Positions 2,879 through 7,554 of a stretch of 21,217 nucleotides of DNA are shown piece after piece. The first letter of the stretch is position 1. Each line of letters opens with the position of its first letter. The notes under the pieces are model-generated. The model did no database searches. It was not told the origin of the DNA and worked only from the letters and a program-made list of their open reading frames with translations. The DNA is taken from IMG/VR virus record IMGVR_UViG_3300003322_001273, positions 1 to 21,217 of that record. One strand, given 5' to 3'. Position numbers and translations under genes: made by a program. Source of the DNA: a virus.

Positions 2879-3511
2879 TCAGTCGAGGGGAACGGCATCG
2901 GGCAGCGTCAGCGTGTATCCATCGCGAACCCTGCGAACATCACTTCCACGGAGGTCAGTCCAGCCCCACTTCTCGTCGATGTAGTCGGAACTCCATCCGA
3001 TGAGGCTTTTCAAGTCGCGCACGCTGACGAACTCGTATCCCTCGAGAAGTTCGTACATCTTCGTCAAGACGACGTCCGCCTCAACGCGAGTGGCGAACAA
3101 CAGGTCGTCGTGCGTTCGACGCTGCAGAGACGCATTCGGCTGGCGCACCATGGTATGGCGCCCGACGGGATTGTTGCCCCGTTCGCTGTACCGAGTGTAG
3201 TTCGTCGGACCCGGAGAAACGGTCGGTCGATACCCACCCGGTCGGCGCGATCCACGGCTTTCGCCGTACAGCATGCGCTCGAAGAACGTGCTCACCATCT
3301 CATTGAGCATGTCTTTGGCCTGAGGAATCAGCACCTCGTTGACCACGTAACTCGTCACGGTCTTGCTGTCGCCACCGATGAAAATATCGTGGATCCGCCG
3401 TCCGAGAGGCTTCTTCCGCGACGCGACTTCACCGGTGACGACTTGCTCCACCACCTTGTCGGGCGTGGGTTTGGGAGCACCTGGCTGCGGCCTTCCCGGC
3501 AATTCGCTCAT
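2879..3511 (-). CDS. Conserved phage protein of unknown function (210 aa)
   Basis: A soluble protein with no membrane segment. It has a Pro-rich N-terminus, a basic stretch RKKPLGRRIHDIFIGGDSK (about residues 32-50), a helical central part, a Gly/Arg/Tyr-rich low-complexity linker (about 86-125) and a folded C-terminal part with WSSDYIDEKWGWTDLRGSDV. This layout is familiar from small-gene regions of actinobacteriophages, where the function is unknown. The start at 3511 has an AGAGGA site and lies 17 bases after the hairpin that ends the preceding cassette. No promoter is seen between, so the gene probably depends on read-through. The gap to the DUF6353-like gene is 17 bases. Confidence 0.75.
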   Translation of the reverse strand: MSELPGRPQPGAPKPTPDKVVEQVVTGEVASRKKPLGRRIHDIFIGGDSKTVTSYVVNEVLIPQAKDMLNEMVSTFFERMLYGESRGSRRPGGYRPTVSPGPTNYTRYSERGNNPVGRHTMVRQPNASLQRRTHDDLLFATRVEADVVLTKMYELLEGYEFVSVRDLKSLIGWSSDYIDEKWGWTDLRGSDVRRVRDGYTLTLPDAVPLD

Positions 3512-3527: not shown

Positions 3528-3561
3528 AAAACCTTGAGCCCTTGTAGGGGCTCTCGGGTTT
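3528..3561 (-). terminator. Rho-independent-type hairpin after the 86-aa gene
   Basis: On the minus strand, directly after the TGA of the 86-aa gene, GAGCCC-CTACAA-GGGCTC forms the core stem. An outer AAACC/GGTTT pairing closes it, with unpaired CGA and AA between. It ends in a short T run. The design (outer AACC/GGTT, inner AGCCC/GGGCT) is shared with the hairpin at 6000-6031. Confidence 0.7.
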
Positions 3562-3562
3562 G

Positions 3563-3823
3563 TCAGTCCTCGGATGCGGGAGTGCTCTTTCGGATCTTCA
3601 TGCTCTGGAAGGCTTCGATCAAGTCGTCGATCTGCTTGTCGGTGTAGTTGCCGGTGATCTCGCCGACGGCTCCACCAATCGCAACGCTGGCAGTCGTCAC
3701 CGTGACCTTGTTCAGGGTCGATGACGTGTCCACGTTGTTCTTGATGAAGTCGTTGACGATCTTGGCAGTACCCGCCGCAACGACGTACTTGACGACCTTC
3801 TTCACAATCGCAATCTTGTCCAT
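3563..3823 (-). CDS. Small hydrophobic phage protein, cassette 1 (86 aa)
   Basis: A small protein with a Lys-rich amphipathic N-terminus (MDKIAIVKKVVKYVVAAG), a Thr/Val/Gly-rich centre (VTVTTASVAIGGAVGEI) that may insert in or line the membrane, and an acidic C-terminus with possible helix IDDLIEAFQSM. Function unknown. The ATG at 3823 is chosen because AAAGGA lies six bases upstream and a TATAAT element 25 bases upstream. The longer in-frame reading to 3907 would translate through that promoter. The gene is a one-gene transcription unit: promoter-like element at 3842-3874, hairpin terminator at 3528-3561. Confidence 0.75.
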   Translation of the reverse strand: MDKIAIVKKVVKYVVAAGTAKIVNDFIKNNVDTSSTLNKVTVTTASVAIGGAVGEITGNYTDKQIDDLIEAFQSMKIRKSTPASED

Positions 3824-3841
3824 TGCAATTCCTTTGTCGTA

Positions 3842-3874
3842 GGGTCTCATTATAGACCCTGTAATTCCTGCGAA
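3842..3874 (-). promoter_or_regulatory. Repeated promoter-like element, copy 1
   Basis: On the minus strand it reads TTCGCAGGAATTACAGGG followed by TCTATAATGAGACCC. It shares TCGCA, TTACA and TATAATGAGACC with the elements at 6279, 6743 and 7167. The -10 is a perfect TATAAT at 3849-3854, 25 bases before the start of the 86-aa gene. No TTGACA-like -35 is present. This copy carries a 7-bp inverted repeat AGGGTCT/AGACCCT (3841-3860) centred on the -10. The rest of the 154-base gap (3875-3977) holds nothing I can name. Confidence 0.65.
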
Positions 3875-3977
3875 TATGGGAAAGCAGGGGCACAGGCTAG
3901 TGGTCACAATTGTCGTTTAAGATTCGCGTTGGTCAAGAGGTGAGACCGGGCCTCTCGCGAATCCCCCACCCGTGGTC

Positions 3978-4520
3978 TTACTTGGCGCCGAGCACCTTGG
4001 CGAACGCGGCCTTCTGCTGGTCCGGAGTCATCTTCGCGAACTCCGCGGGAGTGGGGTTGCGACCCTCCTTCTCCCAGGCCGGACGGTCATCCTTGGCGAC
4101 GGTGTTGCCCATGATGGACGCCAGCTCGGGACTACTCGTGACGTCCTCGCGGAACTTGTCCTGAACCTCCTTGGGCATCAGAGCCGTCAGGAACTCGATG
4201 CCGGCGTTGGGGCTGACCAGGAAGGTCCAGACCAGTTCCTCGATGGCCTGGGACTCCATGATGGTCTTCTTGGCCTCGGGCGTCTTGATGAAGTTGGCGC
4301 CGTCCTCTGAGCGAACACCCGCGGCCATGCGGATGATCTCCTTGTAGGTCTCCACCAGCACCGGGAGGTTGTTCGTCTTGGCCGCCTCGAGGAGGTTCTT
4401 GTGCCAGACCTCCAACTTGAGCTGCAGTTCCGCGATCTCGAGCTTGGTCAGGTGGAAGTAGAAATCTTCGGTGTGCTTCACCCCGTTGAAGTCTTCCCAC
4501 GTGAGCGTCTTCTTGAGCAT
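3978..4520 (-). CDS. Phage protein, tail-assembly-chaperone-like (180 aa)
   Basis: A soluble protein. It begins MLKKTLTWEDFNGVKHTEDFYFHLTK, written in pieces here as LTWEDFNG and EDFYFHLTK. This opening is typical of a phage family sometimes annotated as tail assembly chaperone, which binds the tape measure during tail assembly. A helical middle follows (residues 30-70), then FIKTPEAKKTIMESQA, and a C-terminus with FAKMTPDQQKAAFAKVLG. It lies far from the tail genes, among membrane proteins, and a second chaperone-type gene exists at 18256, so its role here is unsure. The start at 4520 follows GTAGGAG. It is seven bases downstream of the 248-aa membrane protein and probably cotranscribed with it. 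Confidence 0.6.
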   Translation of the reverse strand: MLKKTLTWEDFNGVKHTEDFYFHLTKLEIAELQLKLEVWHKNLLEAAKTNNLPVLVETYKEIIRMAAGVRSEDGANFIKTPEAKKTIMESQAIEELVWTFLVSPNAGIEFLTALMPKEVQDKFREDVTSSPELASIMGNTVAKDDRPAWEKEGRNPTPAEFAKMTPDQQKAAFAKVLGAK

Positions 4521-4527
4521 GATTCTC

Positions 4528-5274
4528 CTACATGCAGCGATCGTAGTCGCGGATCGGGTTCTTGTTGTACGAAATCTGGATGGCCGGCTGATTGGTATTC
4601 AGCAGAGTCGCCGTGAACTTCACGTCCAGCAACTCGTCGGTGTTCCAGCCGAAGCTGTCCGAGAACTCGGTCGGCTCGAGGCCGATCTTCTCGTAGAACT
4701 CCGACAGGGACGCATAGTAAAAATGGTTGACCTGGTGGTTGATCTCGTTCTCGGCCCTCTTGATCTTCTCGACTTCGCTCTTGAAGAAACGCCCGGACAG
4801 CGAGTCGAAGAACAGCACATCGGGGCCGACGATGATGATATTCTGGTAGCCGCCCTTTTCCTCCATGCGCTCCTTGGCCAGCTCGGAGCGCATCTTCTCT
4901 TCCTTCTGGGGGCCGAGCGTCTCGACGACCTTCTTCTTGTAGCCCTCGGCCAGTTCCTCCGAGAGCTTGAATGCGGCCGTGATCGCCGCAGTACGCCGGG
5001 TGCCGATACTGTTGGCAGCGATGATGCAGGTCACCGTTCCCGCCAGCACGACGGCGCCAGGGATGAAGTCCTTGTAGTACTCCTTGACGAGCTCCTTCGT
5101 GGTTGGAGTCGCCTCGTCGAACCTCTCGGTCACGTCGATGCCCACACGAAATGCAGCGCGGCCGGTCAGCACTGCGGACGTAACGGCGCCGGCGACACCC
5201 AGACCGGTCAGGATTCCGGTAGAATTGTCGATGACGAACTTCTCTGCAGCCTTCAGAAACAACTTCACGTTCAT
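4528..5274 (-). CDS. DUF6353-like phage membrane protein (248 aa)
   Basis: The N-terminal half has two hydrophobic segments, about residues 16-42 (STGILTGLGVAGAVTSAVL) and 71-88 (FIPGAVVLAGTVTCIIAA). A long charged helical stretch follows (about 100-140), then a soluble domain with IIIVGPDVLFFDSLSGRFF and YYASLSEFYEKIGLEPTEFS. The order of features matches DUF6353-like proteins found near small membrane genes in phages of actinobacteria; function unknown. It resembles the phage part of the ORF at 1419-2861 in layout (two TM helices, then the FLNEVY/SLSEFYEKIG region, then a short beta-rich end), so the two are probably distant paralogs. The start at 5274 has only a weak GAGAGA site, 13 bases after the microprotein stop, which suggests translational coupling. 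Confidence 0.75.
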   Translation of the reverse strand: MNVKLFLKAAEKFVIDNSTGILTGLGVAGAVTSAVLTGRAAFRVGIDVTERFDEATPTTKELVKEYYKDFIPGAVVLAGTVTCIIAANSIGTRRTAAITAAFKLSEELAEGYKKKVVETLGPQKEEKMRSELAKERMEEKGGYQNIIIVGPDVLFFDSLSGRFFKSEVEKIKRAENEINHQVNHFYYASLSEFYEKIGLEPTEFSDSFGWNTDELLDVKFTATLLNTNQPAIQISYNKNPIRDYDRCM

Positions 5275-5287
5275 GGTCTCTCGCTTC

Positions 5288-5398
5288 TTACTGGTAGTGA
5301 TGTCCGCCGAACATGAGCGCGATCACCGGGAGAGTAATGCCGATCATTGCAGCGATGGATATGGCGATCGCCACGGCCACCCACACAGGGACCTTCAT
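5288..5398 (-). CDS. Single-TM microprotein (36 aa)
   Basis: The peptide begins MKVPVWVAVAIAISIAAMIG and ends LMFGGHHYQ. One hydrophobic helix spans most of its length, with a positive N-terminus, so the C-terminus with its His pair is likely outside. A strong AAGGAGAG site lies seven bases before the ATG at 5398. The gene fills the gap between its neighbours almost exactly, which supports it being real despite its size. It has no recognised family; a small holin-like or accessory membrane peptide is possible. Confidence 0.65.
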   Translation of the reverse strand: MKVPVWVAVAIAISIAAMIGITLPVIALMFGGHHYQ

Positions 5399-5423
5399 GT
5401 AGTGACTCTCCTTCGCGCTGTGC

Positions 5424-5882
5424 CTAGACATGTGTCAGATCGATCTGTCGCGAAACTCCCATCATGGTCATGGTGTACGACAGCGTACCGTGGCCGACCA
5501 TGAACACCTTCGTGTCGCTCTGCACGAGCAACGCCTGCGTGTTGTCCTTGACGGAGGCGACATTGGCGCCGGGCTTGGCCAGGTTGTCGAACGAACCCCT
5601 CCAGTAGGTGATGGTCGTGCCCTCGTTCGTCATGGTGATCACGATGGACTTGCCCTCGACGGACGCGCGGATCGTCACGCCGTTGCTGTCGCCCTCGTAG
5701 GCGCCGTCCAGCGTGGGGGCCTCGACCGGCACGACGGACGCCTTGGGCTGCGGGGCGCCGGCGTTCTCGAAGCTGCTGTGGCCGTCCGGGCCCAGCGAGA
5801 ACACGTAGAGCATGGCCAGCACGCCCGCGACGATCACGCCGCCGGTCAGAATCGGCCAGTACTTCTTCAGCAGGTGCTGCAT
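5424..5882 (-). CDS. Phage protein with N-terminal membrane anchor and exported beta domain (152 aa)
   Basis: It begins MQHLLKKYW. One hydrophobic segment (about residues 9-30) acts as a signal anchor, followed by a Pro-rich linker and a beta-rich domain of about 95 residues starting at LDGAYEGDSNGVTIRA, with TYWRGSFDN and a C-terminal MTMMGVSRQIDLTHV. The domain should lie outside the membrane. It resembles a small protein common in actinophage membrane-gene clusters; function unknown. The start at 5882 is chosen because AGGAAGAGG stands just upstream. The frame is open to 5939, but that extension would cross the Cys-rich gene. It overlaps that gene by 16 bases. Confidence 0.75.
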   Translation of the reverse strand: MQHLLKKYWPILTGGVIVAGVLAMLYVFSLGPDGHSSFENAGAPQPKASVVPVEAPTLDGAYEGDSNGVTIRASVEGKSIVITMTNEGTTITYWRGSFDNLAKPGANVASVKDNTQALLVQSDTKVFMVGHGTLSYTMTMMGVSRQIDLTHV

Positions 5883-5989
5883 GACATTTCCTCTTCCTGT
5901 ACGGGACAGCCCCTGATCGGAGCGTGTTCGGTTCCACACTCATCGCACAGCACGATGAGACATTCCTCGGGGATTTGAATTTCATACAT
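5867..5989 (-). CDS. Cys-rich small protein, possible zinc knuckle (40 aa)
   Basis: It begins MYEIQIPEECLIVLCDECG and continues to a C-terminal MSCSTC. It has six cysteines, including CDEC and CSTC pairs, about 20 residues apart, a spacing that could hold one zinc ion. A GGAGGG site lies four bases before the ATG at 5989, right after the T tract of the hairpin at 6000-6031. Another ATG at 5985 opens a longer frame, but that is a shadow of the 152-aa gene. The last 16 bases overlap that gene, so the two are probably translationally coupled. Confidence 0.6.
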   Translation of the reverse strand: MYEIQIPEECLIVLCDECGTEHAPIRGCPVQEEEMSCSTC

Positions 5990-5999
5990 GAGACCCTCC

Positions 6000-6031
6000 A
6001 AAAAACCTAAGCCCCTGTTGGGGGCTCGGTT
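6000..6031 (-). terminator. Rho-independent terminator after the 74-aa gene
   Basis: On the minus strand AACC-g-AGCCCC, loop CAACA, GGGGCT-ta-GGTT form the stem, followed by a run of six Ts counting the end of the stem. It lies just past the TAG of the 74-aa gene. The ribosome site GGAGGG of the next gene begins immediately after the T run. Confidence 0.8.
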
Positions 6032-6037
6032 GTCGGT

Positions 6038-6262
6038 CTACTTGTCGTCGGCCTTGAGTGCGTTCACGGCGATCTGGCAGGCGGCGTTCAGTACAATCGT
6101 GGCGCCAACAATAACGCCAGCAACGATGAGCGTGTCCTTGATGATTCCACCTGCGATCTTGGCGATCTCAGCAGTTTCCTCAACGGAGGTCTCAACGACC
6201 TGGGTCTTGTTGTCGTCCTTCTTGACGAGCGACACCTGGACAGCACGGTTCTTGAACCACAT
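6038..6262 (-). CDS. Small single-TM phage protein, cassette 2 (74 aa)
   Basis: It begins MWFKNRAVQVSLVKKDDNK, a basic N-terminus typical of a small-protein family seen in Streptomyces and Microbacterium phages. An acidic linker (VEETAEIAKI) and one hydrophobic helix follow (about residues 42-66, TLIVAGVIVGATIVLNAACQI), then a charged C-terminus. Function unknown. The ATG at 6262 has AAAGGA seven bases upstream and TATAAT 23 bases upstream. The start codon is part of an 11-bp inverted repeat with the promoter. It is a one-gene unit, promoter 6279-6310 and terminator 6000-6031. Confidence 0.8.
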   Translation of the reverse strand: MWFKNRAVQVSLVKKDDNKTQVVETSVEETAEIAKIAGGIIKDTLIVAGVIVGATIVLNAACQIAVNALKADDK

Positions 6263-6299
6263 GGCTTATCCTTTCGTAGGGTCTCATTATAAGCCATGT
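6259..6299 (-). promoter_or_regulatory. 11-bp inverted repeat joining promoter core and start codon (cassette 2)
   Basis: ACATGGCTTAT (6259-6269) and ATAAGCCATGT (6289-6299) are perfect complements around a 19-base loop. On the minus strand the first-transcribed arm overlaps the -10 region, and the second arm contains the bases before and including the ATG at 6262. A transcript entering from upstream contains both arms and can fold. One starting at the local promoter lacks the first arm. Confidence 0.7.
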
Positions 6300-6310
6300 A
6301 AATCTTGCGA
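6279..6310 (-). promoter_or_regulatory. Repeated promoter-like element, copy 2
   Basis: On the minus strand it reads TCGCAAGATTTACATGGC then TTATAATGAGACCC. The -10 TATAAT is at 6286-6291, 23 bases before the ATG at 6262. The TCGCA and TTACA blocks are shared with the other three copies. It starts right after the stop of the 33-aa microprotein (6312). No standard -35 hexamer is seen. Confidence 0.7.
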
Positions 6311-6311
6311 G

Positions 6312-6413
6312 TCAGTGGTGGTGCACGGCTAACCACATCACCGCGGCCAGAACGAATCCCAGCCCGATCAGCCACGTGATCAAAATGGCAATGGCTAGCT
6401 TCATGTCGTTCAT
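6312..6413 (-). CDS. Single-TM microprotein (33 aa)
   Basis: The peptide begins MNDMKLAIAILITWLIGLG and ends MWLAVHHH. One hydrophobic helix runs from about residue 6 to 30 and is followed by three His. Its ATG overlaps the TGA of the preceding microprotein in an ATGA, and there is no clear ribosome site of its own, so translation is probably coupled. Function unknown. Confidence 0.6.
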   Translation of the reverse strand: MNDMKLAIAILITWLIGLGFVLAAVMWLAVHHH

Positions 6414-6502
6414 AGGCCCGCGGGGACGATCTTCTGCAGAAAATAGATCCACGCCAGAAGAACAATCGTCACGATGACGATCCAGAAAATGATCCTGCCC
6501 AT
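6410..6502 (-). CDS. Single-TM microprotein (30 aa)
   Basis: The peptide begins MGRIIFWIVIVTIVLLAWIY and ends QKIVPAGL. One helix is preceded by a single Arg. The ribosome site GGAGGA lies four bases before the ATG at 6502 and abuts the T tract of the hairpin at 6513-6542. The stop overlaps the next start (ATGA), forming a two-gene unit with the 33-aa microprotein. No family is recognised. Confidence 0.6.
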   Translation of the reverse strand: MGRIIFWIVIVTIVLLAWIYFLQKIVPAGL

Positions 6503-6512
6503 GTCATCCTCC

Positions 6513-6542
6513 AAAACCTAAAGCCCTTGTGGGGGCTTTAGG
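6513..6542 (-). terminator. Rho-independent terminator after the 54-aa gene
   Basis: On the minus strand CCTAAAGCCC, loop CCACAA, GGGCTTTAGG form a perfect 10-bp stem, followed by TTTT. It lies about 20 bases after the TGA of the 54-aa gene. The GGAGGA of the microprotein pair begins directly after the T run. Confidence 0.85.
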
Positions 6543-6561
6543 ATCGATTCGCGGGGTGGGG

Positions 6562-6726
6562 TCAGTCCTCGTTGAGCGCGAGGTTGGCAGCGGCTTCCTT
6601 GCGGGCCTTGCGCTGGTCGAACTTCTTCCACACGTAGTTCACCGTGGCGTACACGGCGAACCCGGTGGCAGCAGCAGCGATCAGCTGGGCGGCAAGACGG
6701 CCGTTGTCTTCCTGGTTCTCGTCCAT
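6562..6726 (-). CDS. Small single-TM phage protein, cassette 3 (54 aa)
   Basis: It begins MDENQEDNGRLAAQLIAAAA. An acidic N-terminus, one helix (about residues 11-32) and a strongly basic C-terminal stretch (KKFDQRKARKEAAA) suggest the C-terminus stays in the cytoplasm. Function unknown. The start at 6726 has AAAGGAA five bases upstream and TATAAT 23 bases upstream. It is a one-gene unit between the promoter-like element at 6743-6775 and the terminator at 6513-6542. Confidence 0.75.
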   Translation of the reverse strand: MDENQEDNGRLAAQLIAAAATGFAVYATVNYVWKKFDQRKARKEAAANLALNED

Positions 6727-6742
6727 GACAGTTCCTTTCGTC

Positions 6743-6775
6743 GGGTCTCATTATAGCCCTTGTAAAACTTGCGAA
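6743..6775 (-). promoter_or_regulatory. Repeated promoter-like element, copy 3
   Basis: On the minus strand it reads TTCGCAAGTTTTACAAGGGC then TATAATGAGACCC. The -10 TATAAT is at 6750-6755, 23 bases before the ATG at 6726. It shares TCGCA, TTACA and TATAATGAGACC with the other copies. GGG and CCC flank the -10 in place of the longer stem of copy 1. Confidence 0.7.
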
Positions 6776-6780
6776 TCCCA

Positions 6781-6806
6781 AAAAATATAAGCCCCGTAAA
6801 ACTCGA
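6781..6806 (-). promoter_or_regulatory. Degenerate second copy of the promoter-like element
   Basis: On the minus strand TCGAGTTTTACGGGGC then TTATAT resembles copy 3 (AGTTTTAC, GGGC, TATAA). It has a poorer -10 (TTATAT) and lacks the GAGACC block. It lies between the strong terminator and copy 3, in tandem and in the same direction, overlapping the terminator's outer arm. It may be a relic of a duplication or a weak extra promoter. Confidence 0.35.
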
Positions 6807-6852
6807 AAAACCTTAAGACGTGTTTTCGGGTCACACGTCTTAAGGCTTCGAG
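6802..6852 (-). terminator. Strong Rho-independent terminator after the 92-aa gene
   Basis: On the minus strand CCTTAAGACGTGT pairs perfectly over 13 bp with ACACGTCTTAAGG around a nine-base loop, followed by TTTTT. Six more outer bases (CTCGAA/TTCGAG) can pair around the T run. It lies 20 bases after the TGA of the 92-aa gene. It is the strongest hairpin in the window, and its near symmetry means the plus strand could also form it. Confidence 0.9.
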
Positions 6853-6871
6853 ATTCCTCTGGTCGTACAGT

Positions 6872-7150
6872 TCACACGATCTTCTTCAGAAGGCCGAACG
6901 CCTTCGATGCGATCACGTGCGCACGCTCGTGCTGGAGGATCAGCAGCAGTCCAGCGAGGTGCGCCACGATGGGAGCAGCCACAACCAGGTTTACCTTCTC
7001 CTTGGAACGGAGTTCGTATGCCTTGGTCACGGCCGTCAGCATCGCGGCGTAGTTCTCGGTGTACTCGGGCTCATCATCCATCATCTGATACGTACGCATG
7101 ATCATCGCGTCGAAACCGGTCTTGACTTCGTCTTCAGTGCGCTTGAACAT
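6872..7150 (-). CDS. Small membrane protein, cassette 4 (92 aa)
   Basis: It begins MFKRTEDEVKTGFDAMIMRT. An acidic helical N-terminal half (to about residue 50, with DDEPEYTENYAAML) precedes one hydrophobic segment (about 53-73, NLVVAAPIVAHLAGLLLIL) and a basic C-terminal helix (ASKAFGLLKKIV). Function unknown. The start at 7150 has AAAGGA upstream and TATAGT 22 bases upstream. The start codon lies in an 11-bp inverted repeat with the promoter, as in cassette 2. It is a one-gene unit: promoter 7167-7197, terminator 6802-6852. It stands directly downstream of the holin gene. Confidence 0.75.
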   Translation of the reverse strand: MFKRTEDEVKTGFDAMIMRTYQMMDDEPEYTENYAAMLTAVTKAYELRSKEKVNLVVAAPIVAHLAGLLLILQHERAHVIASKAFGLLKKIV

Positions 7151-7186
7151 GGCTTATCCTTTCGGTGGTCTCACTATAAGCCATGT
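7147..7186 (-). promoter_or_regulatory. 11-bp inverted repeat joining promoter core and start codon (cassette 4)
   Basis: ACATGGCTTAT (7147-7157) and ATAAGCCATGT (7176-7186) are perfect complements around an 18-base loop. The arms are identical in sequence to those of cassette 2, although the two proteins are unrelated beyond their first residues. The ATG at 7150 lies in the second-transcribed arm and the -10 in the first. Confidence 0.7.
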
Positions 7187-7197
7187 AATTCGTGCGA
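7167..7197 (-). promoter_or_regulatory. Repeated promoter-like element, copy 4
   Basis: On the minus strand it reads TCGCACGAATTACATGGC then TTATAGTGAGACC. The -10 is TATAGT (7173-7178), one mismatch from consensus, 22 bases before the ATG at 7150. It begins immediately after the holin stop codon at 7198-7200. No terminator separates it from the holin, so late read-through should enter this cassette. Confidence 0.65.
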
Positions 7198-7554
7198 TTA
7201 CTGGAGCGGCTGTTCTCGCTTCACGTTCAGGGTGACCTGGCCACCCTCCTTGAATATCGGGTTGACCGCAGTGCCCACGACCCTCATGCCAGTCGCCGTA
7301 CCGTCGGGATCCTGCGTGATCACCAGGTCGCCCAGCGTGTTCTGGATCTGGTAGTTCTTCGCGCTCTTCCCGAGCAAGGCGCCCAGGAACGTGTCGAAGG
7401 CCGTCACGATCGCTGCCACCACCGAGGCGTCCTCCCAGTGGAGGATGAGCCCCAGAGTGATGACGAACGCCGCGCCAGCGGGCAGCACGACCAGTGCGAT
7501 CCACTTCAGGAAGTCGTACAGCTTCGGCGGCAAGGAAAAGCCGTTGTCATCCAC
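7198..7554 (-). CDS. Holin, r1t type
   Basis: Holins collect in the cytoplasmic membrane and open it at the time set for lysis. Residues 10-70 show the r1t-type holin pattern: PPKLYDFLKWIALVVLPAGAA, a first helix (about 16-39), a second (about 43-62) and the signature AFDTFLGALLGKSAKNY. The C-terminal 50 residues (LGDLVITQDPDGTATGMRV onward) form a hydrophilic, beta-looking extension. The start is a GTG at 7554 with AAGGGG about ten bases upstream. It overlaps the coiled-coil gene by eight bases. No endolysin gene lies nearby. Confidence 0.85.
   Translation of the reverse strand: MDDNGFSLPPKLYDFLKWIALVVLPAGAAFVITLGLILHWEDASVVAAIVTAFDTFLGALLGKSAKNYQIQNTLGDLVITQDPDGTATGMRVVGTAVNPIFKEGGQVTLNVKREQPLQ

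Follow-up and report, generated by a model that had tools for sequence, protein, structure and literature searches.

A bipartite promoter-like element precedes small genes across a clade of siphophages and may be read by their own two-barrel RNA polymerase

The complete IMG/VR record IMGVR_UViG_3300003322_001273 (21,217 bases; hereafter the window) derives from a siphophage of actinobacterial type and carries four small genes, each preceded by a promoter-like element of one kind and followed by a hairpin with a T-run. An initial annotation of the DNA had singled out these four units, and all are present, on the minus strand, with element scores from 36.1 to 51.0 and hairpins of -14.2 to -22.1 kcal/mol. 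Judging from sequence comparisons, we think it probable that a single dedicated phage promoter underlies all four elements; it would be read by the phage's own single-chain two-barrel polymerase, phrog_4291, and would drive a regulon of small genes.

A seed search of IMG/VR with TTACA-N5/6-TATAATGAGACC found the motif in at least 119 stretches, and we aligned 177 distinct copies from the matches listed. The alignment defines the element as TCGCA-N4-TTACA-N5-TATAAT-GAGACC-CCTAC, followed by a Shine-Dalgarno sequence and then ATG. Box 1 (TCGCA) occupies positions -31 to -27 and box 2 (TTACA) positions -22 to -18, with TATAAT and GAGACC at fixed spacing, making the element longer and more regular than initially described. 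TCGCA, which lay outside the search seed, is 91-99% conserved per base, and the flanks beyond the boxes are unconserved. The 177 copies lack a -35 hexamer TTGACA at 16-18 bp; positions -36 to -32 are unconserved except for a T-rich stretch, which fits the terminators that precede the element. For scoring we used a 36-position log-odds matrix trained on these copies, all from other contigs. It recovered four sites in the window, all on the minus strand, with scores of 36.1, 46.4, 51.0 and 46.6 (copies 4, 3, 2 and 1); the next best position in the window scored -22.8, and Markov shuffles peaked at -15.2. Each copy ends 11-14 bases 5' of its ATG. An extra "degenerate copy" that had been proposed scores no better than background.

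Read along the minus strand, promoter copy 4 (7162-7197; TCGCA CGAA TTACA TGGCT TATAGT GAGACC ACCGA; -10-like box 7173-7178) stands before a gene for a 92-amino-acid protein with one likely transmembrane segment (6872-7150; phrog_5818), which has 36 related motif-driven proteins in relatives. The long hairpin and T-run of terminator 4 (6805-6849; -22.1 kcal/mol) are followed by promoter copy 3 (6739-6774; TCGCA AGTT TTACA AGGGC TATAAT GAGACC CGACG; -10-like box 6750-6755). Its gene (6562-6726) encodes 54 amino acids with one likely transmembrane segment, assigned to no family and with a close relative only in contig L113 (80% identity), and ends at terminator 3 (6512-6544; -16.9 kcal/mol). Promoter copy 2 (6275-6310; TCGCA AGAT TTACA TGGCT TATAAT GAGACC CTACG; -10-like box 6286-6291) precedes a 74-amino-acid phrog_6618 protein with one likely transmembrane segment (6038-6262) and terminator 2 (5999-6033; -16.1 kcal/mol). 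Promoter copy 1 (3838-3873; TCGCA GGAA TTACA GGGTC TATAAT GAGACC CTACG; -10-like box 3849-3854) serves an 86-amino-acid phrog_7539 protein (3563-3823) with no clear transmembrane segment, and terminator 1 (3528-3559; -14.2 kcal/mol) lies beyond it. The view of all four products as membrane proteins therefore holds for three, whose hydrophobic segments are clear (Kyte-Doolittle 19-residue maxima of 2.28, 1.64 and 2.21); the protein of 3563-3823 reaches only 1.25.

Six other genes tested for such terminators yielded one weaker hairpin, located in the foreign left end described below. The isolation of the cassettes is incomplete, because a Shine-Dalgarno sequence and a further open reading frame (ORF) lie within a few bases of terminators 1, 2 and 3. 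The four units, which had been called monocistronic, do each end in a terminator, but terminators 1-3 run into further ORFs that have no such promoter of their own. The phrog_4079 gene (2879-3511) starts within about 20 bases of terminator 1. Directly 3' of terminator 2 begins an ORF for 40 amino acids with CxxC pairs (5870-5989), and two ORFs for membrane peptides of 33 and 30 amino acids (6312-6413 and 6414-6503) follow terminator 3; none of these three mini ORFs has a promoter copy in front. Genes downstream of terminators 1-3 may rely on leakage or on other promoters.

The same arrangement recurs widely, with the motif present in hundreds of related phages. The carriers infect Gordonia, Rhodococcus, Arthrobacter, Streptomyces, Curtobacterium and Microbacterium, and drifted versions occur in the saliva phage contig89, Lactococcus phage 1706 and Faecalibacterium phage FP_oengus. 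Eight reference phages (Vardy, Pepy6, Circum, Salk, Doxi13, DrGrey, Yotsuba and Nightmare) hold 3-12 sites each, exclusively on the coding strand, with 0 on the other strand and 0 in Markov controls; the held-out genomes of Camille and Qui (an 18-kb part) hold 5 and 21. Behind the motif lie 251 distinct ORFs of at most 150 amino acids (median 73) that fall into 106 similarity clusters, bearing out the earlier suggestion that a constant control unit serves varied cargo. A likely transmembrane stretch is present in 61% of these proteins, compared with 17% of 52 other small proteins from two of the phages. Across three genomes, a hairpin with a T-run lies 3' of 15 of 22 motif genes versus 9 of 179 other genes. 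The expectation that the motif always precedes a single, hairpin-ended small gene thus describes the rule but not every case: none of the six matched motif genes of DrGrey has a hairpin by the criterion used, meaning either that terminators differ by lineage or that the criterion is too strict there, and a few copies in relatives are followed instead by a tRNA or by structured non-coding sequence, in some cases with GAGAAG or GAGAGG as the start region.

ReqiPepy6 (locus L127, 41122-41551) has a motif-like promoter directly 5' of a tRNA-Ala gene and a second one 5' of a conserved-looking small RNA. Structured non-coding stretches occur in the small-gene regions of L126 (36582-36876), L127 (48461-48756), L133 (31487-31747), L129 (28349-28668) and L155 (7734-8099); that of Vardy spans 295 nt with a folding energy of -123.6 kcal/mol, and those of Pepy6, Nightmare, Salk and Qui come after motif copies, mostly with the GAGAAG-type start. 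Rfam searches across three relatives returned two tRNAs only; L123-L125, the loci that include the stretches of Nightmare and Pepy6, matched nothing except tRNA.

While the architecture of the motif is kept, its boxes drift from lineage to lineage and agree within each genome. The -10 hexamer TATAAT, with A at -11, is present in most lineages, including that of the window, and absent in Curtobacterium phage Yotsuba, whose form is TTTAATAGA with a TTTAAT box, and in FP_oengus, whose boxes read ACGCG...CTTTAT. In the latter, 11 of 24 forward occurrences of [AG]CGCG[AG]A are followed by CTTTAT at the same offset. In Lactococcus phage 1706, 11 of 39 forward TTTACA sequences are followed by TATAGT at exactly N5 (other strand, 0), and box 1 is looser; contig89 has a CTGCA-like box 2. 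Across six sites in Doxi13, TCGCA and GAGACCCCTAC never change, while the -10 does. Such in-step drift of the control unit within a lineage is expected of a regulon with one trans-acting reader.

Our candidate for that reader is phrog_4291, a single chain of ~900 residues that is encoded by every complete genome checked, among them all eight reference genomes, and by 25 motif-selected contigs. Among contigs without it, two large ones end short of the locus and a third is 38,952 bases long; two chance pattern matches without TCGCA likewise have no phrog_4291. In a reverse test, ten contigs of 42-61 kb picked by the polymerase alone, and hence independently of the motif, all contained the motif (51 sites, on a single strand in each; reversed pattern, 0). 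In the relatives the protein carries the catalytic DxDGD motif within an invariant LSGADFDGD, with ADFDGD invariant both in 3 and in 60 sequences, and has two helix-turn-helix (HTH) regions, an N-terminal one resembling sigma region 4 and a C-terminal one. An AlphaFold2 model built from 60 sequences reached a predicted local distance difference test (pLDDT) score of 80.6; a prediction from 4 sequences came out poorly (pLDDT 53.8) and was set aside. The model matches QDE-1 (Foldseek E value 2e-10; Z 15.4 over 377 residues), and its residues 220-717 match the phage two-barrel polymerase gp64 (Z 13.6). This kinship is visible by fold, as a sequence-profile search of the PDB with three polymerase sequences gave only a short HTH-like match to a repeat protein. 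On the strength of the model, phrog_4291 is a predicted single-chain two-barrel RNA polymerase, and by analogy with YonO and the P23-45 enzyme its template would be DNA (PMC5467207, PMC10770324). Deposited names for phrog_4291 proteins include HTH protein, structural protein, tail fiber protein, putative RNA polymerase and RNA-dependent RNA polymerase. Following the polymerase gene, an 83-amino-acid phrog_4303 protein (locus L134, 9827-10075) is detectable in all ten phages compared; it is a candidate partner of the polymerase or could be a specificity factor.

Several observations count against phrog_4291 as the reader. The polymerase and the motif both mark one phage clade, so their co-occurrence cannot pick the polymerase out of the clade-core genes. 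We found no related phages without the polymerase that could serve as a natural negative control; full-length DNA polymerase matches and close terminase matches lead to the same clade. The window lacks the polymerase locus; to judge by relatives, among them the G020 contig (loci L064 and L140), this phage would carry it. A regulon of 3-20 short units seems small for a ~100-kDa polymerase, and the phage relative that has been studied, YonO, acts on long late operons (PMC5467207). Lastly, TATAAT suits the host sigma-A well in most lineages, where it is a perfect -10 hexamer. A rather unlikely alternative is that host RNA polymerase with sigma-A acts at TATAAT and that a phage DNA-binding protein at TCGCA/TTACA replaces the -35 contact. 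T4 middle promoters work in this way through MotA, with a box near -30 substituting for the -35. Box 1 occupies the MotA-box position, although its sequence differs, the -35 hexamer is absent, and further clade-core proteins of unassigned function, such as phrog_4303, could supply the activator. However, sigma-A requires A at -11, and entire lineages have -10-like boxes (TTTAAT in Yotsuba, CTTTAT in FP_oengus) that are poor for sigma-A because they have none. Doxi13 likewise keeps TCGCA and GAGACCCCTAC constant and lets the -10 vary.

It is improbable that the elements are ordinary sigma-A promoters, strong but with no -35, that multiplied by copying, with TCGCA/TTACA as inherited sequence or a repressor operator. 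Actinobacterial sigma-A promoters do often lack a -35 element. Previous descriptions of the motif in cluster DJ take it as a sigma70 -10 (PMC9671010, PMC10868162). Yet the sequence and exact spacing of TCGCA and TTACA are kept across phages of different host phyla, and recent copying fails as an explanation because the boxes keep their spacing while the flanks outside them are unconserved. In favor of the mobile cassette design of promoter, gene and terminator put forward initially, neighboring units often abut, the T-run of one coming immediately ahead of the next TCGCA. We reject it as highly improbable, since gene families and gene order recur at one position in relatives (between the tail/holin module and the replication genes) and since the control units of a lineage drift together.

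Under the reading we favor, with phrog_4291 as the polymerase, the promoter would consist of the bipartite box (TCGCA near -30, TTACA near -20), the -10-like TATAAT and a GAGACCC start region at fixed spacing; we infer both the start point and the reader. Every copy would give rise to a short transcript that encodes a single small protein, often a membrane one, and ends at an intrinsic, possibly leaky, terminator. The predicted regulon, situated between the tail module and the replication genes, would comprise small, fast-diversifying genes along with some tRNA or non-coding units. The four genes of the window had been placed in a late operon, but with a dedicated polymerase they could instead be early genes.

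In two cassettes a further layer of control is predicted. An inverted repeat, ACATGGCTTAT...ATAAGCCATGT (6259-6301, minus strand; -17.5 kcal/mol, z -5.0), spans promoter copy 2 together with its cassette's start codon, and a similar one (7147-7187, minus strand; -14.2 kcal/mol, z -3.7) does the same for promoter copy 4 and the cassette 4 start codon. In both, the spacer beside the -10 is complementary to the surroundings of the start codon over 11 bases. Predicted folding indicates that, in cassettes 2 and 4 only, read-through RNA would hide the start codon in a hairpin and RNA from the predicted start would not; such a lock would leave the dedicated promoter as the sole productive source. The predicted lock would resemble that of T4 late genes, whose start codons are locked in early transcripts. 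Across relatives the pairing exceeds that of swapped controls mainly in two gene families, including that of the cassette 2 gene, with matched changes (CATGGC/GCCATG, CACGGC/GCCGTG). It is not general: outside those families it is near the swapped controls.

More tentatively still, a virion-borne two-barrel polymerase, ejected with the DNA, might use this new bipartite promoter class throughout the clade to switch on short genes for membrane proteins and RNAs as an immediate-early regulon, with the promoter-overlapping hairpin in some genes restricting translation to dedicated-promoter transcripts. A weak hint toward a virion location is that phrog_4291 of Lactococcus phage 1706, 38% identical to that of Vardy, was deposited as a structural protein.

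The basic observation is not new, because the cluster DJ motif has been published as an intergenic sequence of 50 bp (Vardy; PMC9671010) or 43 bases (Conley; PMC10868162) that carries a sigma70-like TATAAT and lies close to genes having membrane segments and terminators. It is the same element: our scan of Vardy gave 8 copies, located in the same central region ahead of short terminator-bearing genes, one matrix detects both Vardy and window copies, and the window copies show the features of the DJ motif. In Pherobrine and Burley the motif was described as intergenic repeats (PMC9753669), and small membrane genes cluster mid-genome in clusters CC, AM, AW, AU and DJ (PMC13313380). The DJ descriptions concern single genomes and report no fixed TCGCA/TTACA boxes, range across clusters and hosts, drift of the -10 or link to a polymerase; what is new here is the motif's range, its fine structure and its likely reader. 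The SAS/ESAS of clusters K and EF (PMC7302621) likewise repeat 5' of the start codons of many small actinophage genes, but the SAS is a 13-bp motif at the ribosome-binding site, whereas our element is longer, contains a -10-like box and has its conserved block upstream of that site, with a different sequence.

Among phage polymerases, the P23-45 virion enzyme (PMC10770324) is also single-chain and two-barrel, with its own repeated promoter motif and with motif and polymerase occurring together in related phages. It differs in belonging to another polymerase family, in its AT-rich pre-early promoters, in being fused to the tape measure and in having mapped activity, whereas the system described here is known from sequence and a structure model. 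YonO of SPbeta (PMC5467207) resembles phrog_4291 as a single-chain two-barrel polymerase of about 900 residues from a siphophage; it serves a long late operon rather than many short units with a recognizable motif, and the promoter it reads was explicitly left open (PMC5467207). Should phrog_4291 indeed be the reader, a ready-made promoter set would be in hand for about 250 phage isolates and for hundreds of metagenomic phages, and a little-understood polymerase family would gain its first testable promoter. The identical control over many unrelated small membrane proteins mid-genome would then be explained as one regulon, and a compact single-protein polymerase with its own promoter might serve as an expression tool.

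Along the minus strand of the window, tail genes and the tape measure are followed by the holin (7198-7554), then by the small-gene region, and then by two DUF6353 genes and the phrog_4079 gene. Named phages gave no DNA-level matches to the window, and its closest DNA relatives are the metagenomic contigs L113 (79%, 11.5 kb) and L054 (83%, 3.4 kb). An Rfam search of the window returned no families. Homology to the phage relatives L054 and L064 ends abruptly at 1958/1952, within the second DUF6353 ORF. The left end (1-1957) is GC-rich (about 0.70 at the extreme end) and holds a gene for a major facilitator superfamily (MFS) transporter (44-1390) that is unmatched among named phages; we looked for the origin of this segment and found none, and probably it was either acquired or joined to the contig as a chimeric end. 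Finally, a hairpin-forming stretch without a T-run (GATTCGCG...CGCGAATC; 3910-3965) lies between a tail-chaperone-like gene (3978-4520) and promoter copy 1.

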